A stretch of DNA of 23,780 nt, from positions 8,111 through 31,890 of IMG/VR virus record IMGVR_UViG_3300010233_000154; one strand, given 5' to 3'. Below, piece by piece: positions 2,214 through 21,826 of this stretch. Position 1 is the stretch's first letter. Each line of letters starts with the position of its first letter. The notes under the pieces were generated by a model. The model saw only the letters and a program-made list of their open reading frames with translations. It was not told where the DNA came from and did no database searches. The stretch is from a virus. Both the position numbers and the translations under genes were made by a program.

Positions 2214-2801
2214 GGCGGCTAGAGTCTGCTGTGTAAGGGCTACACGCTCGTTTAAACCAATAGTCCCACCATTGATTATCTTGGTGACCTTGGTTGTGTC
2301 ATTGGCGTCTGCCGGGGCATTGATCTTGTGTGTGTCCCAAAACCACCCAGCGGTCATAGCAGCGTACTTGGGTGTAGCTACCAGATCTGGTTCCATCACG
2401 AAGTCAACGCCGAGCGCTTTTCCAGCATGGAAATAATTAGCATGCCCAGTAAGCTGAATACAGCCCCGACCACGAAAACGATAACCATCACCAGAAGCTT
2501 CATCACGATTGCCCATACGTGAAGCGTAGACCATGTTGGCAATCTTCTTGGGGTTTCCTGCATAAGCATTTGCAATCTCCAAAGTAGGAAAACGCTTGGG
2601 CCACAGACGCATCAAAGTAGCGGCCTTGTAATTCAAGTTCTCTTCAAGTATTCGAAAGTGACCGCATTCATGACCACATTGCCCAATGAAAGCAGCTTGT
2701 TGATTAGGAGTAAGAATATTGAATCGAGCGAATGTCTCGTTCAAAGGATCAACCCAGTCGGCAGAGATATGCAGCTTGGCAAGTTGAGTGCTATTGACCA
2801 T
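2202..2801 (-). CDS. Endolysin, glycoside hydrolase family 19 (chitinase-like)
   Basis: The product has 199 residues, a usual length for a single-domain GH19 phage lysin. It cuts the glycan strands of peptidoglycan at lysis. Diagnostic segments are IGQCGHECGHF (the Glu at about 45 is the expected general acid), ENLNYKAATLMRLWPKRFP, IANMVYASRMGNRDEASGDG (second catalytic Glu near 101) and YRFRGRGCIQLTGHANY. There is no signal peptide or membrane segment, so export should need a holin. The gene follows Rz/Rz1 and overlaps Rz by 11 bases, so it is last in the late operon, an unusual position after rather than before the spanins. Confidence 0.93.
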   Translation of the reverse strand: MVNSTQLAKLHISADWVDPLNETFARFNILTPNQQAAFIGQCGHECGHFRILEENLNYKAATLMRLWPKRFPTLEIANAYAGNPKKIANMVYASRMGNRDEASGDGYRFRGRGCIQLTGHANYFHAGKALGVDFVMEPDLVATPKYAAMTAGWFWDTHKINAPADANDTTKVTKIINGGTIGLNERVALTQQTLAALMG

Positions 2802-3246
2802 TTACTGTAGTCCTCACTTTTTCGTAGGCTGCAATGCAGGCGTTGAGTCTGTTGATTGCTTGGTCGCCTTCGGCTGCGAGTTGAGCAATAAGTTGGAGAG
2901 TCTCTCTGTCAGATTCGCTTGCATCGGAGACACTTCCGGGGGCAGCGGGGGTACTTGTACTGGCTTGAACACAACCTGGGGTGGGGAGGCGCACCCTGCC
3001 AGCGTTAATAAGACGATTGAGATCAGACTGTTTTTTAGCAATGGCATCGTTGGCCTCCTTCAATTCTGTAGACGTTTGGTTAATCTGCTCATTCAGCTTG
3101 GTTTCTGCTTGCCGAGCCTGTTCGTTCTTGAGTGCTATCTGTGCCTGCATCTCTTGATCTCTTTTCGCATAACCTGCATGGTGACCGTAAAAATATGCAG
3201 AGATGCACACAACGATAGCTCCAATGATCATCCAAGGGTTCGGCAT
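2791..3246 (-). CDS. Rz-like inner-membrane spanin (i-spanin)
   Basis: The product has 151 residues. Residues 5-21 (WMIIGAIVVCISAYFYG) form an N-terminal membrane anchor, followed by a long charged coiled coil (about 25-80) and a periplasmic part. This is the plan of Rz proteins, which with Rz1 fuse inner and outer membranes in the last step of gram-negative lysis. The identification rests on architecture, on the nested Rz1-like lipoprotein gene in another frame and on the adjacent endolysin. The start ATG shares one base with the stop of the upstream membrane-protein gene (TAATG). Confidence 0.85.
   Translation of the reverse strand: MPNPWMIIGAIVVCISAYFYGHHAGYAKRDQEMQAQIALKNEQARQAETKLNEQINQTSTELKEANDAIAKKQSDLNRLINAGRVRLPTPGCVQASTSTPAAPGSVSDASESDRETLQLIAQLAAEGDQAINRLNACIAAYEKVRTTVNGQ
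2814..3047 (-). CDS. Rz1-like outer-membrane lipoprotein spanin (o-spanin), nested in Rz
   Basis: The product has 77 residues, encoded wholly inside the Rz-like gene in a different frame. A short signal sequence (LLKNSLISIVLLTLAGC) carries the lipobox L-A-G-C with the lipidated Cys at 19. The mature part begins with a Pro-rich stretch (KPVQVPPLPPEVSP), as in Rz1 proteins. Fully nested Rz1 genes are known from lambda and others. Signal peptide, lipobox, Pro-rich segment and placement agree, so I hold this call firmly. Confidence 0.88.
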   Translation of the reverse strand: MPLLKNSLISIVLLTLAGCASPPQVVFKPVQVPPLPPEVSPMQANLTERLSNLLLNSQPKATKQSTDSTPALQPTKK

Positions 3247-7716: not shown

Positions 7717-8133
7717 TTATTGCTGCGGTGTTCCAAATCCTTGAGGACGTAAGAACTTGCGATAACCACCAACTGTAAATTGATTATTTTCAGTAGGATT
7801 TGTTGTTTCTGTACTTAAAGGTGTTGTTTGAGAATATGGAACAACAGGCGCATTTGCTTGAGGCATATTCAAACTTTCACTAAAACCATAGTTTACTGGA
7901 GGTATAGGTTGTGGCGCGACAACATTGTTAGTGTTTTCAGGAGCGGGTACAGATCCTTGTGGAGGAATTTGATTGGACATTTGATCAGCAAGCCAATCAA
8001 GTCCTTTACCCAAGAGCTTTCCTAATGCTCCAGGTTTGCCATCGCCACCAGACATTCCTTGTTGTGCGTATTGCCTTTCAGGGCCACCAAACATGCCAAG
8101 GCCAGCATTTGCAAACGGATGACTATCTGCCAT
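7717..8133 (-). CDS. Pro/Asn/Gly-rich hypothetical structural protein
   Basis: The product has 138 residues, SD AAGGAACAATC before ATG, nearly the same leader as the 89-residue gene. The N-terminal third is Gly-rich with one amphipathic helix (GALGKLLGKGLDWLADQM). The rest is Pro/Asn/Thr-rich and probably disordered. No family is recognised. It lies in the virion-protein cluster. Confidence 0.5.
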   Translation of the reverse strand: MADSHPFANAGLGMFGGPERQYAQQGMSGGDGKPGALGKLLGKGLDWLADQMSNQIPPQGSVPAPENTNNVVAPQPIPPVNYGFSESLNMPQANAPVVPYSQTTPLSTETTNPTENNQFTVGGYRKFLRPQGFGTPQQ

Positions 8134-12901: not shown

Positions 12902-13441
12902 TTAAGCCGTGAAGTATGTCGCGGTAAATCTGACAGTTGTGTTGTTAGCCAAATCAATATGGACAGTATTGGCAAAGTTTAAAATTGCGCTATTTTGAAT
13001 AATGTAGTTGTATGTGTTTGCAGCGCTTTGTGCAGGCGCGTTTTCCCACGCTGTAACCCCAAGCGATAGGTCAGGTTGAGAAATTGCCAATGCAGTAAAA
13101 GGCAAGCCTGTGCAAGCTGCACCTCCAGCTGAAGAACCTTTATTGCTTAAAACCATCGCGCCAATCAACGTAACTTGACGCCCGATTTTTGTGTACGTGC
13201 CGCCTCTGTTTGTGTACGTAATTCCAGTTGAGCCGCCACCAAAAGTTAAAGCAGGCGTCCAAGTCCCCTCCTCATAATCATCTAGCGTGTTTGCGTCAGA
13301 TGATGCTGATTGAGTTGCGGGGAAGCTGACACCAGCGCCAGAAGCAGACGGCGTTGTTCCACCAACACCAATGGTGGTAGCAGAGATCAAAGTACCTGAG
13401 TTGGTTGTGACACCTGAACTGCCACTTAAAACTAATGACAT
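12902..13441 (-). CDS. Tail fibre / appendage protein
   Basis: The product has 179 residues. The N terminus is Ser/Thr/Gly-rich. The block QSASSDANTLDDYEEGTWTP (about 44-63) is a segment I know from many phage tail fibre and receptor-binding proteins. It is followed by a beta-rich domain (LTFGGGSTGITYTNRGGTYTKIGRQVTLIGAMVL). The product is expected on the virion surface. SD AAGGAAAAAATATC before the ATG lies entirely inside the last codons of the GIY-YIG gene, with a 10-base gene overlap. Confidence 0.7.
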   Translation of the reverse strand: MSLVLSGSSGVTTNSGTLISATTIGVGGTTPSASGAGVSFPATQSASSDANTLDDYEEGTWTPALTFGGGSTGITYTNRGGTYTKIGRQVTLIGAMVLSNKGSSAGGAACTGLPFTALAISQPDLSLGVTAWENAPAQSAANTYNYIIQNSAILNFANTVHIDLANNTTVRFTATYFTA

Positions 13442-14115
13442 GATATTTTTTCCTTACAGTTATCAAAGTGCCAGCGTGTGCCAGTACCTTTGTTAAGTCC
13501 AATTTTGCCGCAATGTGGGCAAGTCCAAGGGTTAGCAGCCAAAGTTGATTTTAATTTTTCAATGGTTTCAACAGAGTTTGGGATGCCTCGTTTTTTTGAA
13601 GGTTTCCCGGTATTAGCCAGTCGAATCTTTTCAATTGTCTCAGGCGTGTGTTTGATGCCTTTACGATGCCCGGGTTTGCCCTTTTTGGCGTTGGAAAGCA
13701 GCTCACGCATACCAAGCCTTGTCCACTGTTCTTTAGCCGCCTTGCTGACCTTTGCACGGGTTTCAGCAGACATAATCTTGCCCTTATTCCAAGGTGGTTT
13801 GCCTGTTTTATAGCGTTTACCCAATGAACTCGGAGGCTTACCACCTCCAATAGCACAATTCCATCCAATACTTTTATCTGGTCTAAGTTTCTTTTCAATA
13901 TCTAGGCAGTAATCTTCATCAGCAATCAAGATTTCTGACTTGACCAGCGCATCCCAACCATACTTTTTTATTGCGTTTTTGAGATGAGGATTGCCGACAA
14001 GTTTGAAATGCTCCCACATGCGTCTATCAAATCTGCTGGACACGCCAATGTACCCCTGACTAGTCATGTCAGTGTGGTCTTGGCAGCGTATCCAATAGAC
14101 GCTGGTCACAGTCAT
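13432..14115 (-). CDS. GIY-YIG homing endonuclease with NUMOD3 repeats and C-terminal zinc finger
   Basis: This 227-residue free-standing site-specific nuclease is of the kind that spreads its own gene between phages. The N-terminal catalytic domain has the GIY equivalent VYWI (6-9) and GYIG (21-24). FDRRMWEHF (29-37) carries Arg residues. LDIEKKL has the probable metal-binding Glu at 74, followed by GWNCAIGGG (84-92). The DNA-binding part has NUMOD3-like repeats: KPPWNKGKIMSAET, KGKPGHRKGIKHTPET, TGKPSKKRGIPNSVET. The C terminus, CPHCGKIGLNKGTGTRWHFDNC (199-220; Cys 199, 202, His 216, Cys 220), is a zinc finger I know from other phage homing nucleases. It sits between two fibre genes, SD AGAAGGAG. 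Confidence 0.92.
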   Translation of the reverse strand: MTVTSVYWIRCQDHTDMTSQGYIGVSSRFDRRMWEHFKLVGNPHLKNAIKKYGWDALVKSEILIADEDYCLDIEKKLRPDKSIGWNCAIGGGKPPSSLGKRYKTGKPPWNKGKIMSAETRAKVSKAAKEQWTRLGMRELLSNAKKGKPGHRKGIKHTPETIEKIRLANTGKPSKKRGIPNSVETIEKLKSTLAANPWTCPHCGKIGLNKGTGTRWHFDNCKEKISCH

Positions 14116-14165
14116 TTTGCTGCTCCTTCTAGGGCCGTTAATCTGTCAGTCAGAGATTGAATCAT
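14112..14165 (-). CDS. 17-codon microgene, detached fibre-type coiled-coil end
   Basis: ATG (14165) overlaps the stop of the G2-like fibre gene (TAATG) and has an SD, AAGGTGG, about four bases away. The TGA overlaps the GIY-YIG start (ATGA). The predicted peptide is MIQSLTDRLTALEGAAK. Against the last 15 residues of the S74 fibre, ITQLQADVAALQGAA, positions I, L, A-L, G-A-A match and L/V and E/Q are conservative. It may be translated as a peptide, be a remnant of a replaced fibre end, or simply carry the endonuclease gene's SD (AGAAGGAG lies within its LEGA codons). Confidence 0.4.
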   Translation of the reverse strand: MIQSLTDRLTALEGAAK

Positions 14166-15229
14166 TACGCCACCTTCACGATGATGCGTGCCCGACCGTC
14201 TTGCTCAATTGCAATGACTTTGCCGACAGTTTGTTGATATTGTTCAAACGTAGGGTTGCTCACAGCCTCACCCTTGATTGCGCCGTTGTCATTCACAGGG
14301 ATGATGTACTGACCAGCAGTAGCGCCTGTGACGTTGACAGGAACTTGACCAGCAAAAGCAATACGGTCTACGGTTTGACGAGCTGCTTCTAAGCCATCTT
14401 TGTCATCTTCAAAACCAACACCCCATGTGTCTCCGCCGATATAAGCGGGGTCAGTAGATTTCACAACAAACGTCACAGCACTAGCAAACACATTAGTCAG
14501 CTTGCCGTCTGCGTTGATACCAACCACATCACCTTTGGCAATAGCAAAGTCGCCAGCTTTAATCATGTATTCAGCATAGTCAGCACCCGAAGCGTTAATT
14601 GAGCCTCCAGCGTTAATAGAACGGTTAGTTGTATTGTTTAGCGGAATTCTAAACCCCGTAGCAGCCACGTTTCCATTTGCTCCACCACAAACAAAAAACT
14701 GTCCTCCATTAGTCAAACTAAGATTTACGTTTCCTTGTGTCTGAGTAGGATGTTGAATTGTGTTTGATGATCCACTTGTAGTACCCACCAGCAAATTCCC
14801 ACTAGCATCAAGCGTCATTGCTTGGGTGAAAGTGATTGCGTTACCTGCTGTGCCTGAAGCTGCGTTGAACCAAGCGTGGATTCCATTGGCGTTGTTGATG
14901 GCGTAGCTATTAGCAAAACCGTTGTTTATATAGCGGTTATTTGAACCATCATAGTAAGCGTTTGAGTAGATATAACCGTTTACTCCACCTAATGCCCATG
15001 CGCTTAACCCACCATTTTTTAATTGCATTGCACCTTGACCAGAGGGCCAAGCACTAGGAGTAACTCCCACGCCCACGTTTTGAGCGTTGTCCACCGTCAC
15101 CGCTGTGGTTGCGGAACCCCCCGCCGTAGTAGTTTGCAAAAGCAAAACGCCATCGTTGCCACCCGTGGACTTGATGCCCGCCGAGCCGCTGGTTACGCCA
15201 TTGTCAGAAAGTACGATGCTTGAGGCCAT
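14165..15229 (-). CDS. Tail fibre protein with G2-like C-terminal domain
   Basis: The product has 354 residues. The N-terminal half contains the fibre blocks NVGVGVTPSAW (51-61) and GTAGNAITFTQAMTLDASGN (126-145), shared with the neighbouring S74 fibre. From about 215, GADYAEYMIKAGDFAIAKGDVVG begins a domain ending in RIAFAGQVPVNV ... GQYIIPV ... IGKAIAIEQ-type strands (here GKVIAIEQDGRARIIVKV). The GADYAEY start recalls the Peptidase_G2 intramolecular-chaperone domain of fibre proteins, which trimerises and may cleave itself; I cannot confirm cleavage residues. It is on the virion surface. The start shares a base with the S74 gene stop (TAATG), SD AAGGAG within that gene's LQGAA codons. Confidence 0.75.
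   Translation of the reverse strand: MASSIVLSDNGVTSGSAGIKSTGGNDGVLLLQTTTAGGSATTAVTVDNAQNVGVGVTPSAWPSGQGAMQLKNGGLSAWALGGVNGYIYSNAYYDGSNNRYINNGFANSYAINNANGIHAWFNAASGTAGNAITFTQAMTLDASGNLLVGTTSGSSNTIQHPTQTQGNVNLSLTNGGQFFVCGGANGNVAATGFRIPLNNTTNRSINAGGSINASGADYAEYMIKAGDFAIAKGDVVGINADGKLTNVFASAVTFVVKSTDPAYIGGDTWGVGFEDDKDGLEAARQTVDRIAFAGQVPVNVTGATAGQYIIPVNDNGAIKGEAVSNPTFEQYQQTVGKVIAIEQDGRARIIVKVA
14801..14857 (-). repeat. Fibre repeat cassette A, copy 1
   Basis: 57 bp, differing at about three positions from copy 2 (15652-15708). It encodes SGTAGNAITFTQAMTLDASG in the G2-like fibre. Conservation at DNA level, beyond the protein motif, indicates recent duplication or gene conversion. Confidence 0.88.
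15047..15082 (-). repeat. Fibre repeat cassette B, copy 1
   Basis: 36 bp encoding QNVGVGVTPSAW in the G2-like fibre; two mismatches to copy 2 (15898-15933). It lies 246 bp from cassette A copy 1, exactly as copy 2 does from its A partner. Confidence 0.87.
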
Positions 15230-16056
15230 TATGCGGCTCCTTGTAATGCGGCTACGTCAGCCTGCAATTGAGTTATGAGGGCTTGTTGTTCTTTGATGGC
15301 TTTGATACACAAAGAAACCATGTTGCCATACGCCAAAGCGTCTGGTGTTCCATCTTCTGCGTATTGCACAAATTCAGTAAGTCCTGCCTCATGCACCTCT
15401 TCAGCAATCAAACCTCCAAATATGGCGTCTCCGTTATTGTTTCCCTTGTATGTAACAGGACGCAACGACATGACTTCAGCAAGTCCATGAACTGCATCTT
15501 GCACATCATTTTTGTACTTTAATGACGATGTTGATCTATGCAAATAACCAGCAGCATCAATGTACATATTAGCGGCATTAGCTACTGTGTCGTTATATGC
15601 ACCAATGGATGAAATACTGCTTCCAGTTGTTTTAGAGATAATAAGGTTACCACTAGCATCAAGCGTCATTGCTTGGTTAAAGGTGATTGCGTTACCTGCT
15701 GTGCCTGATGGGGCGGTGAACCATTGATGCCGACCTGTAGTTTGTTGGTAATATGTTGCAGCAGCGGTAGTCTTATAAATCCATTGATAAGAACTGTTTA
15801 AAAACCCATTAGTTGCAAGAATTGCAGATGCGCCATCCGTTTGCCCAAATAATGAAACCCCGTAAGGAAACTCTAAAACTCGATAGCTAGCTGTATTCCA
15901 AGCACTAGGAGTCACCCCCACGCCCACGTTTTGTGCCGTGTCAATATAAACTGCTGTAGTAGGTGTAGCCCCGGTTTGTAAAACCAGAGTGCCTGTGGTG
16001 TCCGCAGCTACCTTGTAGGCGGTCGTTGTGGTTGTGCTTGCGCTAATAGTTGACAT
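15229..16056 (-). CDS. Tail fibre protein with C-terminal S74 intramolecular chaperone
   Basis: The product has 275 residues. Fibre blocks NVGVGVTPSAW (43-53) and GTAGNAITFNQAMTLDASGN (118-137) are followed by an S74 domain from about 170: YLHRSTSSLKYKNDV, LRPVTYKG, FGGLIAEEVHEAG and a final coiled coil (IKEQQALITQLQADVAALQG). S74 domains trimerise fibres and then cut themselves off. By comparison with S-D-R-R-L-K in known members, Ser 177 and Lys 182 (five apart) would be the catalytic pair, placing the cut just before Ser 177 (inference). The start directly follows the previous stop. Confidence 0.88.
   Translation of the reverse strand: MSTISASTTTTTAYKVAADTTGTLVLQTGATPTTAVYIDTAQNVGVGVTPSAWNTASYRVLEFPYGVSLFGQTDGASAILATNGFLNSSYQWIYKTTAAATYYQQTTGRHQWFTAPSGTAGNAITFNQAMTLDASGNLIISKTTGSSISSIGAYNDTVANAANMYIDAAGYLHRSTSSLKYKNDVQDAVHGLAEVMSLRPVTYKGNNNGDAIFGGLIAEEVHEAGLTEFVQYAEDGTPDALAYGNMVSLCIKAIKEQQALITQLQADVAALQGAA
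15652..15708 (-). repeat. Fibre repeat cassette A, copy 2
   Basis: 57 bp, about three mismatches to copy 1 (14801-14857). It encodes SGTAGNAITFNQAMTLDASG in the S74 fibre, 851 bp from copy 1. Confidence 0.88.
15898..15933 (-). repeat. Fibre repeat cassette B, copy 2
   Basis: 36 bp encoding QNVGVGVTPSAW in the S74 fibre, two mismatches to copy 1. It lies 851 bp from copy 1 and 246 bp from cassette A copy 2. Confidence 0.87.
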
Positions 16057-16536
16057 TTAGATTACCACCCATTGTTGTCCAGAGGCAACCGTGACTGTTA
16101 CGCCACTTGCCAGAGTTACAGGTCCAACAGAAAAACCATTAGACCCACTTGCTATCGTATAACTTACAGTTGCTGTTGTTTTGTTTACTTGAATAGCACC
16201 ACCAGCCTGTGCGCCACCAATACCGCCCCAATTAGAACCATCATAGCCCTCAAATTGAGTTAGATCAGTGTTGTAGCGGAACATGCCCTGTGCAGGCGTT
16301 GGACGGTTTGCAGTAGTACCCGCAGGCACTTGAATAGTCCCAGTTCCAGTAAACAAACCAGCAGCCGCAGCTTTAGTCGCCAATACTTGAACAGCATTTG
16401 AACTATCCTTATAAAACAACTTTCCATCAGCAGTGTTAATTGCCAATTCACCAGCAAGCAAATTACCAGCAATAGGCGTATTGGTTGTTGTTGGTGAGTA
16501 ATATAGTTGAATAGGGGTGTAGCCTGTTTGCGACAT
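16057..16536 (-). CDS. Tail fibre-like / appendage protein
   Basis: The product has 159 residues, SD AAGGAAACAAC. Its two recognisable parts are YTPIQLYYSPTTTNTPIAG and GELAINTADGKLFYKDSSN (28-46), and RPTPAQGMFRYNTDLTQFEG plus YDGSNWGGIGG. Both are blocks common in phage fibre proteins, where they form short trimeric beta units. The remainder is Gly/Thr/Val beta sequence. No C-terminal chaperone is present, so it may be a short accessory or adaptor of the fibre. Confidence 0.7.
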   Translation of the reverse strand: MSQTGYTPIQLYYSPTTTNTPIAGNLLAGELAINTADGKLFYKDSSNAVQVLATKAAAAGLFTGTGTIQVPAGTTANRPTPAQGMFRYNTDLTQFEGYDGSNWGGIGGAQAGGAIQVNKTTATVSYTIASGSNGFSVGPVTLASGVTVTVASGQQWVVI

Positions 16537-16545
16537 GTTGTTTCC

Positions 16546-16881
16546 TTAAAAAGTTCCACCCTGAATGCCACTACCCAATGAGTAGGACATTTGTCCGGGA
16601 GTTGACCAAACCAATGCTGCTGTACTTGCTGAATCAACAAAAGCAATCGATACCCATACCGTTGTTCCAGGACTAGCTGGAGGAATCAAAGTCCAGCCAG
16701 TAGGAGCAGTACCAGTGTTGGTAGAGAAATTCCAAGAACCGCCAGTAGGAGTAGAAGGTGCTACAGAACTTACATAAAAAGCATAAAGCTGAAATGCAGT
16801 GCTTGCCGTAAAAGTTGTAGACGTAGTGGCATATAACCCTGAAGATTGAGCTACGTTGCTGTAGATACCTGCTGTAGTCAT
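16546..16881 (-). CDS. Short fibre-type protein paralogous to the N-terminal domain of its neighbour
   Basis: The product has 111 residues. PSTPTGGSWNFSTNTGTAPT and GW, then ALVWSTPGQ match PSTPTGGSWNFLTNTGTPPS, GW and TLVWSDPGQ in residues about 30-85 of the 563-residue collagen-like fibre. Both proteins also end in G-G-T-F. The gene is therefore a duplicate of the fibre's N-terminal domain without the shaft. It probably binds the same virion site or the same partner, but this is inference. The start overlaps the fibre stop (ATGA). Confidence 0.65.
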   Translation of the reverse strand: MTTAGIYSNVAQSSGLYATTSTTFTASTAFQLYAFYVSSVAPSTPTGGSWNFSTNTGTAPTGWTLIPPASPGTTVWVSIAFVDSASTAALVWSTPGQMSYSLGSGIQGGTF

Positions 16882-18572
16882 CAGAATGTTCCTCCAGAGA
16901 TACCTGTCGTTGCTTTTAGCGTAGTAAACGTACCAGCAGCAGGCGTTGTGTTGCCAATAATCACACCATCAATATTTGATGAAAATGTTGGCGCACTTGT
17001 TCCAGCAGATGTTAATACTTGTCCAGATGTACCAACAGCAGTAACAGCTAATGCAGTTGTTGTTAAACCATAAACTACACCACCAGCAACAAATGCAGAT
17101 GATTGACCAGTACCACCACGGTTATAAGCAACAGAATTACCGTTCCATGTAGCAGAGGTTATTGAACCCGGATAATCAAATGTGTTTGTTGACCAAGATA
17201 CATTAGATGGCGCAAAGTTATGTACATCCCATGATCCAGCAGCGGTTGCATTACTTAACAAAATTATTTCAACAAAACCACCAGATTGGATGGTTGAAAT
17301 AGTAGTACTTGAATTGTTTTTAACAACAATAGTTCCACTAGATTGATTATTGTTAAAAGTGTAATTTGTACCATTTGCCAATGTAGTTGCATCAGGCAAT
17401 TGATATGTTTGACCACCAGAACCAGTAACTACAAAATTAGGCGCAGACGATACTGTTAAAACAGTAGTTGTACCAGCAGCGGCAACATTAGAAAATGCTT
17501 CATTGATTGAGTTTGCGGTAATGTTTAAATTACTATCACGAACAACTACAGAATTTGAGCCACTTGTAGTTAAACTAATTGCAGGAGTTGTAGTGCCTGT
17601 TGCAACCAATACAGGAGCAGTTCCAGTTACTGATGTAACAGTTCCTACTGAAACAGCACCAGTTTGACCGTTTACCGATGTGACGGTGTTTGTTTGGTCA
17701 ATCTTTTGCCAAATAGTGCCATTAAAAATAGCCCAATCACCAACTTGCCAATCAGTAATGCCATCAAGGTTGGTACTACCAGCAGTCGTAACTACATAAT
17801 AAAAACCGTTTGTTCCAACACCAGAAGCCAACGTAGGCGTGTTGGTTGAAGCGTTCCAGCCGCCTTTGTATTGCAAGCCACCAGCAAGTGTTACCCAGCT
17901 TGTGTCGTAATCAGTACCGCTGTTTTTGGCAAGGATCTGACCCGTTGTTCCACCAGTAGGTACGCCCGCACCCGTAGCACCTGTAGCACCAGTAGCGCCC
18001 GTAGCACCAGTGTCTCCACGAGGAATCGTAAAGTTAAATACAGCAGCAGACGATGTACCTGAGTTTGTAACGCTTGCAGAACTACCAGCAGCACCCGTAG
18101 TGGTTGTACCAACAGCAATGGTTGCCGCAGCTCCAGTAGAGCCTGTTGCACCTGTTGCGCCTGTTGCACCTACATCACCACGAGGAATTGTGAAATTGAA
18201 TACAGCAGCGTAAGCGTTACCAGAATTGCTAACTGAAGCAGATGAACCAGCAGCACCAGTAGTAGTTGTTCCAACAGCAATGGTCGCTGCTGCACCGGGT
18301 GTTCCGGGACGAAAGATCTGTCCGGGATCAGACCAAACAAGTGTCGCACTGCTAGACGAGTTAACAATCGATGTAGACATGTACACCGGGTTAACTGGGT
18401 TAGGTGGAGCAACTGTTGCCCAACCAGACGGAGGCGTCCCAGTGTTAGTTAAAAAATTCCACGAACCGCCAGTAGGCGTTGAAGGCAAAGTAGCCGATTC
18501 AATGAATATCAACCACTCAAAATAGATACCCGGTTGAGTTGTACTACCACCATAAAGTCCATTGGTTGCCAT
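16881..18572 (-). CDS. Long tail fibre with collagen-like repeats
   Basis: The product has 563 residues. Residues 1-90 form the module shared with the 111-residue neighbour. A short G-T-P-G then leads into two tandem copies (93-146 and 147-200) of a 54-residue unit: GAAATIAVGTTTTGAAGSSA, a beta segment ending FNFTIPRGD, and a collagen-type run of G-A-T triplets. After that come GTTGQILAKNSGTDYDTSWV, TDWQVGDWAIFNGTIWQKID and SVNGQTGAVSVGTVTSVTG blocks, all common in phage fibres, and a beta-rich end (YNRGGTGQSS ... GVIIGNTTPAAGTFT). This is a surface fibre for host attachment. No chaperone domain is at its end, so trimerisation may rest on the repeats. Confidence 0.8.
   Translation of the reverse strand: MATNGLYGGSTTQPGIYFEWLIFIESATLPSTPTGGSWNFLTNTGTPPSGWATVAPPNPVNPVYMSTSIVNSSSSATLVWSDPGQIFRPGTPGAAATIAVGTTTTGAAGSSASVSNSGNAYAAVFNFTIPRGDVGATGATGATGSTGAAATIAVGTTTTGAAGSSASVTNSGTSSAAVFNFTIPRGDTGATGATGATGATGAGVPTGGTTGQILAKNSGTDYDTSWVTLAGGLQYKGGWNASTNTPTLASGVGTNGFYYVVTTAGSTNLDGITDWQVGDWAIFNGTIWQKIDQTNTVTSVNGQTGAVSVGTVTSVTGTAPVLVATGTTTPAISLTTSGSNSVVVRDSNLNITANSINEAFSNVAAAGTTTVLTVSSAPNFVVTGSGGQTYQLPDATTLANGTNYTFNNNQSSGTIVVKNNSSTTISTIQSGGFVEIILLSNATAAGSWDVHNFAPSNVSWSTNTFDYPGSITSATWNGNSVAYNRGGTGQSSAFVAGGVVYGLTTTALAVTAVGTSGQVLTSAGTSAPTFSSNIDGVIIGNTTPAAGTFTTLKATTGISGGTF
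17973..18296 (-). repeat. Two tandem 162-bp units of the collagen-like fibre
   Basis: Unit 1 (18135-18296) and unit 2 (about 17973-18134) each encode a 54-residue block: GAAATIAVGTTTTGAAGSSA, a variable NSG segment, AAVFNFTIPRGD, and G-A-T triplets. The variable segment differs (NAY against TSS) and silent changes are frequent, so the duplication is not very recent. Confidence 0.85.
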
Positions 18573-18582
18573 TTATGAACCT

Positions 18583-19566
18583 CTATTTGAACGAATATCT
18601 GTAGTCGCGTGGTTGGAATTCAGAGGTAAGGTGACGATCACCACCAGACCACTTATCTTTGAAGTTTTGATCTTCAATCAGACCGTAGGATTCATCCATA
18701 CGAACAGCCCACTTCTGAGCCTCAGCCACGTTCTTATTCTTGTCGTAATAGCTTTCCAAAGTGCCATAGAAATAGCCTTCAGGGAATGTAGCCAATACTG
18801 CGTTGTTTTGCACAAATGGTCGAGCCGTGTCGCCAGTAGCACCAAACAAGAACGGAAATGTTTTGATGTAATACGCCTTCATCGTGACGTTAGCGCCAGG
18901 ATTAGGAGTAAACACATATTTACTGCCAACCTCAGAGAAAGAAGCTCTAATGACCCTTGGAACGCCAAACGGACGTACATACAGTTGGTCAATCATGCGG
19001 CGGCGAATAATCTCTCTGTCGCCTACCCGGTCATACATGATCCAAGGACCCATGCCAGCGCCAGGGGAACCTTCTTCCAAGCTTGAATTGGGAGTTTCCT
19101 GCCAAAACAAAATAGGCCAGTTCATGTCCGCAGGAATAGTAGCCAAACCTGCCGAGTCAGTAGTAATTGTGGTTGGAGCAACGGAATCAAAAGGATCTGA
19201 GCGCAACGCAGGCAGTTCAAGAGTACGCATCTTCAGCTCACAGAACTGAATAGCAGACACAATCTCTACCGATGACTGTGTGGGTAATTTGAGGATGGTT
19301 GTACCAGTTGCGACACCAGTCCAGATGCCGTCTGGATCATCTACCGTGACAGTAGTGCTGCTGATGTCAATAACTGCTGCAAATGAACCGATAACGCTAG
19401 TACCAATGAAATCTCCGACCATCAACAACGATGTTGGGTTTGAAGAAGTGGTGATAACACCAGCGTTATATGAGCTAACAGTTAGAGCAACAGACTGAGG
19501 AATTGCGCCTACCCATGCAGCAACACGGCTAACCAAGACGTTAGCGGATTGAATGAATAGGGCCAT
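18583..19566 (-). CDS. Tail adaptor / tail tubular A-like protein
   Basis: The product has 327 residues, SD GAGGAAG. It begins MALFIQSANVLVSRVAAWVG with a beta segment, then a helical core (SSVEIVSAIQFCELKMRTLE, PADMNWPILFWQE). The C-terminal helices end in ATFPEGYFYGTLESYYDKNK and a Trp/Asp-rich tail. Alternating helices and strands with this length, directly after the head genes and before the fibres, fit a tail adaptor of the gp11 (T7) / gp4 (P22) class. I do not see a diagnostic motif. The alternative is an unassigned neck or head-completion protein. Confidence 0.55.
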   Translation of the reverse strand: MALFIQSANVLVSRVAAWVGAIPQSVALTVSSYNAGVITTSSNPTSLLMVGDFIGTSVIGSFAAVIDISSTTVTVDDPDGIWTGVATGTTILKLPTQSSVEIVSAIQFCELKMRTLELPALRSDPFDSVAPTTITTDSAGLATIPADMNWPILFWQETPNSSLEEGSPGAGMGPWIMYDRVGDREIIRRRMIDQLYVRPFGVPRVIRASFSEVGSKYVFTPNPGANVTMKAYYIKTFPFLFGATGDTARPFVQNNAVLATFPEGYFYGTLESYYDKNKNVAEAQKWAVRMDESYGLIEDQNFKDKWSGGDRHLTSEFQPRDYRYSFK

Positions 19567-19575
19567 AGAACTTCC

Positions 19576-20085
19576 TCACTTGGTCGGTATTGCTGGATTA
19601 TATGGTAAGGGGATCTTTCCAGAAGGATGACAAACAAAGTCGGAATAGTATTCGTTCACGATGGCGTAAAACAAAATCTTGTCTTTTTTTTCCCGCTTTA
19701 TCAGTTCCCACGGACGATTGTTAAAGTACTTTGAGCTGATCCCGTGAGCAATCGATTTTGGGAGACACATAGCCTCAAAAGTGCCAGCAAAGAAAGGATT
19801 GTCCGTAGTTCCAATAGTTTGGTAAAACTCTCGGCGTTCTTTGCAATATTGCTTGATGCCATCAGTATTGTGTTGGGTATATTGAACGTAGTTGTTACCG
19901 TCTTGGGAACCAACCTTGTAATCAATATTCTTTGTCTTAAATGTTTGCGACCAAGTGCCAGACTTGACCTCGTTGTACATTTTGTCGTTTTTGATTAGAA
20001 GGCCTTCAATGCCACCTTCAAGGATACCTTTGGAATAGTAATCCTCGTTGATCTTTGCTTCTTCGTTGTTGAGGTTCAATTCCAT
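19576..20085 (-). CDS. Hypothetical head-tail region protein
   Basis: The product has 169 residues from the ATG at 20085; SD AAAGG, ten bases away, lies inside the end of the HNH gene. It starts MELNLNNEEAKINEDYYSKG. Conserved-looking parts are CKERREFYQTIGTTDNPFFA, GTFEAMCLPKSIAHGIS, SKYFNNRPWELIKREKKDK and EYYSDFVCHPSGKIPLPYNP. I recall similar proteins (EYYSDFVCHP type) in environmental phages beside the capsid gene, without established function. Location argues for a head-completion or neck role (inference). Confidence 0.55.
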   Translation of the reverse strand: MELNLNNEEAKINEDYYSKGILEGGIEGLLIKNDKMYNEVKSGTWSQTFKTKNIDYKVGSQDGNNYVQYTQHNTDGIKQYCKERREFYQTIGTTDNPFFAGTFEAMCLPKSIAHGISSKYFNNRPWELIKREKKDKILFYAIVNEYYSDFVCHPSGKIPLPYNPAIPTK

Positions 20086-20579
20086 ACTTTGCCTTTGCGT
20101 TGATTTTCTAAAGCAGACAGAATTTGAAGATTGAATTGATTGTGCAATCCACATACGTTTGTACCTGCTAATGGCACAACATGATCAACGTGGTACTTGA
20201 CACCGGGATTCATTGCTTCAAGTTCCTTTGCTTTTTTATAAAAAGCTTTTACACCATCTTGACCCCATTGGGTAGTTGCTTGCAATTTGTAAGCCCTACG
20301 TTTGGCGTCTTTGGCAATGTAAATATGTTTGTTTTTATAGTAGTGATCTTTTCCATATTGCCTTCGCTTTTCAAGCATTTCATCTGATTTGATGTAGGCA
20401 ATAACTTTTTCAGGATTTCTATCACTCCAACTTTTTGTTCTGTTTGTTTGACAAATTGAACAGTTGCCCGTTGCAGTCCATCGTTTAGCCACATGGCCTT
20501 GTTTGCAAAATAGACCTGTGAAATAGGATTTTGAACCCACCTCACAGGCTTCTTTTCTAGTCTTTGGTAAATCGTACAT
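20076..20579 (-). CDS. HNH homing endonuclease
   Basis: This 167-residue free-standing nuclease is inserted between the capsid gene and the next head-tail gene. The N terminus has a zinc-binding arrangement (Cys 25, His 29, Cys 40, Cys 43: FCKQGH ... GNCSIC). The middle is a basic helix (NRTKSWSDRNPEKV ... YKNKHIYIAKDAKRRAYKL). The C-terminal HNH domain reads KYHVDHVVPLAGTNVCGLHN (His 130, Asp 132, His 133), then FNLQILSALENQRKG with Asn 150 and Asn 159. The start has SD AGGAGG. The last codons overlap the next gene by 10 bases and contain its SD. Confidence 0.92.
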   Translation of the reverse strand: MYDLPKTRKEACEVGSKSYFTGLFCKQGHVAKRWTATGNCSICQTNRTKSWSDRNPEKVIAYIKSDEMLEKRRQYGKDHYYKNKHIYIAKDAKRRAYKLQATTQWGQDGVKAFYKKAKELEAMNPGVKYHVDHVVPLAGTNVCGLHNQFNLQILSALENQRKGKVWN

Positions 20580-20598
20580 GCTGTCCTCCTAAAGAAGA

Positions 20599-20613
20599 TT
20601 TTACCTCCTTTTT
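20599..20613 (-). promoter_or_regulatory. Perfect Shine-Dalgarno sequence without a start codon at the right distance
   Basis: On the minus strand this reads AAAAAGGAGGTAAAA, an almost full match to the 16S 3' end. The next start, that of the HNH gene, is about 24 bases beyond GGAGG and has its own SD (AGGAGG, 20584-20589 region), so this one serves no visible gene. It may be a leader left when the HNH gene entered, or a ribosome standby site. Confidence 0.5.
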
Positions 20614-20626
20614 GATTTAGCATGTA

Positions 20627-20640
20627 CTGATTTACATCAG
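20627..20640 (-). other. Small hairpin with GNRA-type loop after the capsid gene
   Basis: Minus-strand CTGAT-GTAA-ATCAG forms a 5-bp stem with a GUAA tetraloop, starting about 10 bases after the capsid gene stop. No U-tract follows (AAAAAGGAGG comes next), so it is not an intrinsic terminator. It might protect the capsid mRNA end or mark processing, but chance is also possible. Confidence 0.3.
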
Positions 20641-20650
20641 ACTATTGTCA

Positions 20651-21808
20651 TCAAGCCAAATATCTCTTAACTTGCGCTGTTGCACGTGCCGTAGTTACTA
20701 CTGCGCCAGTGGTCATGCCTGCAAGGACAGCCACGCCTGCTGGGTTGCGGACAATGAGCGTGCCTTCGAGAATGTATTGGTCCAAGCTGGCGTCAGCATT
20801 GGAGAACACTTCATTGTTAGGACCCAATTCGCGCAAGCTACCCCACTGAACCACATCAGGGTTCAAGAACAGGATAGAGGTGTTGTCAGAACCAGTTTGG
20901 TCCATCACCCAGCTGTCATCGATCTGATAGGTGTAGTTGAAGTCACCTTCGTAAGTACCAATCGTGTCGCCCTTGTCAGCAGGGTTAAAACGGTTGATCG
21001 AACGGCTCTGAGGAATGTTGTCAGAGATAGTGGTACGCAACGAGGTAGGCACAACCATGTTCGTGATTTTGGCGTTGAAACGCTGTTCAGCAACAGTCAC
21101 GAGTTGTTTGTACAACACGGGGCTGAAAGCTTGCAGGGTTTGACCAGTTGCGAACGAGAAGTAACCCAAACCAGCATTAGCCAACGAACCGTTGAAAGGC
21201 GTGTTAGTAGAAGCAGTGGTTCCGATAGCATCGTTGCTGTCAGAGGTAGCGATGTTCAAGACGCCAGTACCGCTGGTAGGGTTACCAGAGCGAGTGCCTG
21301 CGAAAGCGAACAAAGAACCAAAACGGCGACCATTGTCAGGCGAAGAACCTTGAGTAGCGGCTTGACCAGAGTACTTGATAGAAGCACCGTCAGCGCGCAA
21401 CATTTGCAGCTCAACGTCAAACATAATCTCAGTCAATTGCTTGACTTCTTGATAGGCTTGAGGATCACCACCAGCTTGTTCCACAGCGCGGGCAGTGCCA
21501 GTAGCACCAATCACGGTCGTGAAAATCTGGGTGTAGTTGCCCAAGTTAGAACGAGTGTTAGAAGCAGCAGCGGTCGAATCGACAGATGCACCTTCCAATT
21601 TAGCGTTCAATGCTGGGACACGGAAATAGTCATTAGGCCAAATGTGCAGAGTCGAATTGACTTTGCGCTTTTTGGACATAGCCATGTTAGTAACCGGGGT
21701 GCGGTCTTTAACATAGTTAGACACGGTCATGTCGAGGTCTTTGACCACGATGTCGGTTGTATAGGAACCGTTACCATTGCCAAGTGCGGCAGAGGTGATA
21801 GTAGACAT
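20651..21808 (-). CDS. Major capsid protein, DUF5309 / SU10-like
   Basis: The product has 385 residues. After a short Gly/Asn-rich start it reads DIVVKDLDMTVSNYVKDRTP (N-arm), WPNDYFRVPALNAKLEGASV, then NTRSNLGNYTQIFTTVIGAT and GTARAV. A helix follows with EVKQLTEIMFDVELQMLRAD (HK97-fold spine), then EGDFNYTYQIDDSWVMDQ and ILFLNPDVVQWGSLRELGP, and finally IVRNPAGVAVLAGMTTG. This order is what I know from DUF5309 capsid proteins such as that of phage SU10. It builds the icosahedral head around the scaffold encoded just upstream. SD CAGGAG; 18 bases separate it from the scaffold gene. Confidence 0.9.
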   Translation of the reverse strand: MSTITSAALGNGNGSYTTDIVVKDLDMTVSNYVKDRTPVTNMAMSKKRKVNSTLHIWPNDYFRVPALNAKLEGASVDSTAAASNTRSNLGNYTQIFTTVIGATGTARAVEQAGGDPQAYQEVKQLTEIMFDVELQMLRADGASIKYSGQAATQGSSPDNGRRFGSLFAFAGTRSGNPTSGTGVLNIATSDSNDAIGTTASTNTPFNGSLANAGLGYFSFATGQTLQAFSPVLYKQLVTVAEQRFNAKITNMVVPTSLRTTISDNIPQSRSINRFNPADKGDTIGTYEGDFNYTYQIDDSWVMDQTGSDNTSILFLNPDVVQWGSLRELGPNNEVFSNADASLDQYILEGTLIVRNPAGVAVLAGMTTGAVVTTARATAQVKRYLA

Positions 21809-21826
21809 TAAATTCTCCTGTGAAGA

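Follow-up and report, generated by a model that had tools for sequence, protein, structure and literature searches.

Two homing endonuclease genes in a virus genome lie at the starts of resident genes and probably re-supply the Shine-Dalgarno sequence from their own last codons

The window analysed here is a stretch of 23,780 nucleotides (nt) of viral DNA (positions 8,111 to 31,890 of the IMG/VR record IMGVR_UViG_3300010233_000154) and makes up most of this 31.9-kb record. Its minus strand carries a run of virion genes, including the gene of an SU10-type major capsid protein (MCP). Two homing endonuclease genes of unrelated families, GIY-YIG and HNH, were found in this run. The GIY-YIG gene runs into the start of a small tail-fibre-like gene, and the HNH gene runs into the start of a conserved gene for a protein of 169 amino acids (aa). 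On the coding strand, the first junction reads TGTAAGGAAAAAATATC directly followed by ATG, and the second reads CGCAAAGGCAAAGT directly followed by ATG. The TAG stop of the GIY-YIG open reading frame (ORF) is formed by codons 3–4 of the fibre gene (TTA GTT), and the TGA stop of the HNH ORF by codons 3–4 of the 169-aa gene. The first-pass annotation had given the coordinates of both junctions, an overlap of 10 nt at each, and a Shine-Dalgarno (SD) sequence of the downstream gene within the final codons of each endonuclease. All of this was borne out by the sequence. The start of the 169-aa gene was accepted at 20085, although its frame is open to 20154, because endonuclease-free homologues begin at MELN directly after the intergenic SD. 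The label of a head-tail gene, also given by the first-pass annotation, is positional. The 169-aa protein matches no family in Pfam, PHROG or NCBIfam and no fold in the PDB, and a head-tail assignment was rejected as there is just a weak resemblance to uncharacterised viral proteins. Our explanation, which we consider probable, is that free-standing homing endonucleases were inserted exactly at the translation start of the resident gene and that the SD was re-supplied by their own last codons.

The edges of the HNH insertion were located by comparison with an empty allele. The relative L170 (IMGVR_UViG_3300047200_000033) carries no HNH gene at this site and is ~99% identical to the window on either side beyond the immediate flanks. 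The homology breaks off at the MCP stop and picks up 2 nt before the ATG of the 169-aa gene. The spacer replaced by the insert holds a hairpin and the resident SD, and this SD is lost in the window. Both flanks of the insert are diverged over short tracts (Table 1). All of the mismatches in the left tract are synonymous except for a TGA/TAA stop swap, and the MCP protein is unchanged. This synonymous divergence is read as the co-conversion signature of recent homing by the HNH element, and presence/absence polymorphism and flank co-conversion are found together at this site. The tracts indicate that the SD and ATG junction probably arrived as one unit. The same junction is occupied by an HNH gene in several relatives and in the annotated phage MW202484.1, where the overlap with the 169-aa gene is likewise 10 nt. 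In the relatives L100 and L077 it is occupied by a GIY-YIG gene, and L100 retains the resident-type hairpin upstream of this gene.

Table 1. Features of the two endonuclease junctions in the window
Feature	Position	Strand	Basis
Resident small tail-fibre-like gene, 3' of the GIY-YIG gene	12902-13441	-	PHROG matches without known function; homologues without endonuclease
GIY-YIG homing endonuclease gene	13432-14115	-	NUMOD3 and phrog_314 matches; tail KEKISCH, then stop
GIY-YIG/fibre overlap, 10 nt, coding strand ATGTCATTAG	13432-13441	-	sequence
Fibre-gene SD (AAGGAA)	13450-13455	-	K-E codons right behind the last Cys of WHFDNC; family-wide pattern
Resident mini-ORF (MIQSLTDRLTALEGAAK, then stop), AAGGAG at 14123-14128	14112-14165	-	same kind of element directly before the fibre ATG in L557, L571, L576
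Resident conserved 169-aa gene, between MCP and adaptor-like genes	19576-20085	-	at least 80 homologous loci
HNH-type free-standing homing endonuclease gene, 167 aa, ends ENQRKGKVWN, then stop	20076-20579	-	PHROG 1035/26577, Cas9 HNH profile match, absent from empty allele
HNH/169-aa overlap, 10 nt, coding strand ATGGAATTGA	20076-20085	-	sequence
169-aa gene SD (AAAGG)	20092-20096	-	invariant K and next G of the HNH N-x-x-K-G motif
Co-conversion tract on the right, ~24 nt at the start of the 169-aa gene	20064-20087	-	diverged, then ~99% identical
562-nt insert in place of the 52-nt spacer (hairpin and SD) of the empty allele	20088-20649	-	blastn to L170
Co-conversion tract on the left, final 119 nt of MCP	20651-20769	-	22 mismatches against L170, ~99% identity beyond
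Major capsid protein (SU10-type), left neighbour of the HNH insertion site	20651-21808	-	Pfam SU10_MCP, E = 4.5e-36

Other features of the MCP/169-aa junction were also noted. Empty junctions (e.g. L091, 3368–3421) carry a terminator-like hairpin with a T-run, which is missing in the window. Given this loss, the HNH insertion may alter read-through besides translation. A gene of ~270 aa (MATLAWKEYNSAFVSDVNTG...) lies between the MCP and the 169-aa gene in L117, L159, L196, L201, L209 and their relatives, and leaves the resident hairpin and SD intact. Its product is possibly a capsid decoration protein. The ~900-nt gaps between the MCP and the 169-aa gene (L117, L159, L201 and others) were considered as endonuclease alleles and rejected, because they hold this decoration-like gene with hairpin and SD kept. 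The deposited annotation of MW202484.1 (L556) names an antisense frame of the capsid gene as a protein (1777–2952) and misses the capsid gene, which lies unannotated at 1798–2949 on the plus strand and is 93% identical to the window MCP. The antisense frame of the MCP is fully open in 20 of 72 distinct MCP copies, and its counterpart in the window lies at 20645–21811 on the plus strand.

The HNH protein matches PHROG 1035 (labelled endonuclease VII, E = 2.6e-16) and also PHROG 26577. Its family profile aligns to Cas9 HNH domains (E = 0.0014) across the core DH..N..ENxxKGN. No match to Pfam HNH was found up to E = 10. The AlphaFold model is of low confidence (predicted local distance difference test, pLDDT, 71; predicted template modelling score, pTM, 0.35), with no useful PDB match; the Cas9 HNH profile gave the better result of the two. 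The motif of Endonuclease VII and F-CphI is CX2-4C...DHDH...R...CX2C...N (PMC6083498). Membership in this group was rejected, as the core of the window protein is DH..PL...N..ENxxKGN, without DHDH or the flanking C-x2-C pair, in an alignment judged by eye. Asn159 and Lys162 are invariant in the family alignment, and the N-x-x-K-G motif aligns with ENSKKGNR of a Cas9 HNH domain. We take this motif to be the catalytic Asn motif of HNH nucleases. HNH ends were collected by a pattern that itself fixes K-G-N. An ATG ORF lies within 30 nt at 53 of 98 such N-x-x-K-G-N ends, and the best SD falls in the K-G-N codons in 44 of these 53. In HNH genes, the SD seems to arise as a side effect of the enzyme motif. 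The relative L167 was considered as a frameshift that keeps AAAGG and loses K-G; this was dropped, as the alignment has the K kept and the G changed to A.

The GIY-YIG protein of the window matches NUMOD3 above the cut-off (E = 1.7e-9) and phrog_314 'homing endonuclease' (E = 5.4e-25). Its match to Pfam PF01541 (E = 5.2e-4, 20.7 bits) is below the cut-off of 22.6, and the N-terminal VYW..GYIG is visible. Its zinc-finger-like C-terminus, CPHC..WHFDNC, is common to annotated homing endonucleases of T4-like phages. The gene is flanked by complete genes and probably does not lie within an intron or intein. The empty arrangement was found in the relatives L557, L571 and L576. The AAGGAG of the mini-ORF, which ends in LEGAAK and a stop, takes the fibre-SD position in these relatives and precedes the GIY-YIG ATG in the window. 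The mini-ORF of the window is detached and resembles the C-terminal coiled end of the adjacent fibre genes. Similar mini-ORFs with an internal SD were seen between fibre genes of relatives.

The tail behind the last Cys was analysed in GIY-YIG ends sampled by a pattern scan blind to the tail, which gave 86 non-redundant WHFDNC ends with short tails. An end was counted as coupled when the start of an ATG ORF of 50 aa or more lies 6–30 nt past the Cys codon (44 of 86). The best tail SD energy was –5.6 in coupled and –0.95 in uncoupled ends (p = 9e-10). With slightly different filters, an SD 4-mer was present in the tail of 31/40 coupled and 4/39 uncoupled ends (p = 9e-10). The standard deviation of the SD-to-ATG spacing was 2.4, against 4.2 with tails permuted onto the ATG distances of other genes (0 of 300 permutations). 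Codon choice is biased as well. In K-E after the Cys, the Lys codon is AAG in 24 of 29 cases, compared with 9 of 55 at internal K-E of the same genes (p = 3e-9), and an Arg in first tail position is encoded by AGG in seven of eight coupled genes. Where the SD is absent from the first tail codons, it is found 1–2 codons later, with the ATG shifted along. These data support selection on codon choice and SD presence, which would keep the downstream gene translated, in GIY-YIG tails. The first-pass annotation had offered selection for translational coupling as an explanation for both families. It stands for the GIY-YIG tails, where codon choice is biased and an SD occurs mostly where a gene follows, and not for the HNH genes, in which no evidence of SD selection was found.

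The same kinds of tails recur before unrelated genes. By homology, the 122 downstream proteins form 79 groups, 4 of which are matched by both nuclease classes. GIY-YIG tails precede 42 groups and HNH ends precede 41; therefore, the junction arose many times. Twenty downstream proteins were scanned against PHROGs, and among the matches were NrdB, DNA polymerase, terminase large subunit, portal, head closure, head-tail adaptor, baseplate wedge, an RtcB-like ligase and helicase. A second pair of empty and occupied sites was found at nrdA/nrdB. In KVP40, which is empty, the two genes are 9 nt apart. In PVA8, which is occupied, the endonuclease ends in WHYDNCKEKHV and a stop, with AAGGA just before the nrdB ATG, and the insert ends exactly at this ATG.

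Remnants of resident starts were found in GIY-YIG loci. In L081 and L082, from two metagenomes, the endonuclease is preceded by a truncated remnant that consists of the first 39 nt of the resident gene. Behind the endonuclease tail, these 13 codons occur again as a recoded copy, which runs on into the full gene. L014 is arranged in the same way, with a remnant of 26 nt. An apparent fusion of the resident N-terminus to the endonuclease was seen in L015, L026 and L361. Exact duplications in L446, L428 and L342 were rejected as self-matches of the script. Remnants were present at 9 of 62 GIY-YIG loci (~15%) and at none of 53 HNH loci. The rate per ATG was 2.8%, against 0.1% at control ATGs farther upstream (p = 2e-5). 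The two classes apparently arrive at the same geometry via different routes. Entry of both genes by a common recombination route at SD/start regions had been the other explanation of the first-pass annotation. Its entry site is upheld by the empty alleles, in which the inserts end at the SD/start region (L170; KVP40 against PVA8), and the common route is not, as the two families seem to differ in their remnants.

The equal overlap at the two window junctions had been regarded as a meaningful geometry, and this was not confirmed. When 122 endonuclease/neighbour junctions were pooled, the overlaps spanned –13 to +26, with 4 the commonest. The probability of an overlap of 10 is 0.057, and that of any two junctions being equal is 0.116. 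The equal overlap in the window is a coincidence, no more than chance gives. The overlap length is fixed because the endonuclease stop lies in the opening codons of the resident gene. The 169-aa gene already starts ATGGAATTGAAY in many endonuclease-free relatives, and therefore the resident TGA ends any endonuclease ORF that enters in this phase. The unrelated GIY-YIG gene of L077 at this junction also overlaps by 10 nt, and its TGA is the resident one. In L003 and L167, where the resident gene reads ATGGAACTTAAY, the overlaps are 11 and 16. In L100, the GIY-YIG tail has its own TAA and there is no overlap. At nrdA/nrdB, two different endonucleases in the Vibrio phages PVA8 and phi-pp2 both overlap by 8 nt, because the TAA comes from nrdB codons 2–3. 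Selection for exactly 10 nt, as a termination-reinitiation geometry acting on both nucleases, is highly improbable. The 10-nt overlap is indeed common to two unrelated nucleases in one genome and recurs in L077, L011, L373 and L417. However, the spread of overlaps refutes such selection as a general rule, and the resident codons dictate the stop.

Ordinary compact packing, in which any gene abutting the next holds its SD and endonucleases are not special, is an unlikely explanation, and it does account for part of the pattern. Among the other genes of at least 100 aa in the same contigs, 42% have a downstream start within –26 to +8 nt of their stop and 15% contain the next SD. This 42% baseline was used in place of a weaker random-position baseline (13%). 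The commonest overlaps are 4 and 1 nt in these genes, and 4 nt is also the commonest in endonucleases. However, endonucleases hold the next SD 2.4 times as often (36% against 15%, p = 1.3e-5), the same tail kinds stand before many gene groups, and the empty alleles reveal replacement of a resident SD. Recombination at short homologies between an endonuclease tail (AAGGAG) and the SD of a new target, both of them purine-rich, is somewhat less probable still. It would make the geometry a result of the entry route and not of selection. It fits the ends of the inserts at the SD/start region, and the tail residues past the conserved motif vary by site and look resident-derived. At the 169-aa site, however, the SD in the HNH gene (AAAGG) is part of the conserved enzyme motif and not the resident GGAG. 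The start remnants put some GIY-YIG breakpoints 26–39 nt inside the resident gene, away from the SD, and L081 and L082 already suggest this for the breakpoints of first invasion. Besides the share explained by tight packing, several points weigh against insertion with SD re-supply. Vibrio phage phi-pp2 has a different mobE without a good SD, and its nrdB, unlike that of KVP40 and PVA8, starts with TTG (L553, ~1126); therefore, not every insertion supplies an SD. SD strength is equal in coupled and uncoupled HNH genes, a comparison made void by the search pattern that fixes K-G-N. For the GIY-YIG gene of the window, no close empty allele was found, only the relatives. The locus counts are uncorrected for shared ancestry.

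The explanation that we favour, insertion at the translation start with the SD returned by the endonuclease, can be set out as follows. The insert displaces the resident SD. The endonuclease frame passes the resident ATG and halts at the first in-frame stop of the resident codons, which sets the overlap. The last codons of the endonuclease would then give the resident gene a new SD. In GIY-YIG/zinc-finger enzymes, its source would be the free tail behind the last Cys (C-K-E-K, TGY AAG GAR AAR), and in HNH enzymes the N-x-x-K-G motif (AAR GGN). The SD and ATG junction would move as a single unit at homing, because co-conversion with the element extends into the opening codons of the resident gene. 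In some GIY-YIG insertions, the endonuclease probably also takes over the SD and start that belonged to the resident gene, which is left with a rebuilt start behind the element. Judged from the sequences, the tail SD is presumably used by ribosomes, and selection would maintain it in GIY-YIG tails. The dependence of the downstream gene would tie an essential gene to the element and guard the element against deletion. A wider proposal is made tentatively, at slightly less than even confidence. Endonucleases with such a C-terminus could be start-restoring mobile elements, which enter essential genes within their first codons, take for themselves the SD and start found there, and return a new SD and start from their own 3' end. 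Part of the conserved C-terminal sequence would then be maintained for its role as an RNA signal and not for the protein, and an essential gene would fall silent if the endonuclease were lost. If this is true, a conserved protein end that doubles as the ribosome-binding site of the neighbour would account for the success of these endonucleases at gene starts, for the difficulty of losing them, and for the odd short overlaps from gene finders. A WHFDNCKEK or N-x-x-K-G-N end followed by ATG can serve as a rule for spotting such insertions.

Elsewhere in the window, two nested out-of-frame ORFs (2791–3246 and 2814–3047, minus strand) lie beside an endolysin-like gene (2202–2801). The shorter has a lipoprotein-like start, and the two look like an Rz/Rz1 spanin pair.

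Homing endonuclease genes are concentrated near terminase, nrd and capsid genes and are exchanged among phages (PMC10448857); that paper was found to mention neither an SD nor a start codon nor an overlap. In the open-access literature searched, which leaves most subscription journals outside, no description of a homing endonuclease whose end contains an SD was found; this is not proof of novelty. Free-standing homing endonucleases occur commonly in the operons of phages, and their entry into essential operons without silencing the next gene is so far described mainly for transcription. In the free-standing seg/mob endonuclease genes of T4, promoters of the downstream gene are embedded (Edgell, Gibb & Belfort 2010, PMC2988022). 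The likeness is an endonuclease in an operon whose coding region bears the expression signal of a downstream essential gene, which was proposed to favour retention. In T4, however, the signal is a promoter and the overlaps discussed are with the upstream gene, whereas here it is an SD from the C-terminal motif itself, fused to the start codon of the next gene, with many unrelated genes in that position. T4 mobA (between genes 39 and 60) and Aeh1 mobE (within nrdA) are also endonucleases in or between parts of a gene, with the downstream part translated as its own protein. They leave the protein in two pieces, whereas in L081, L082, L014, L015, L026 and L361 the downstream gene has its full N-terminus restored, and only a short remnant is left upstream of it. 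The nrdA-mobE-nrdB arrangement of phi-pp2 and the PVA8 endonuclease, with KVP40 empty, are alike in the insertion into the nrdA/nrdB gap and in the overlap from nrdB codons; WHYDNCKEK and AAGGA are present in PVA8 and not in phi-pp2. The available part of the phi-pp2 genome paper treats endonuclease expression and not the fate of the nrdB SD or start. Integrative elements that target tRNA genes restore the 3' end of the tRNA gene. They are likewise mobile elements that repair the gene they enter, with other enzymes and at the opposite gene end, and the comparison is an analogy only.

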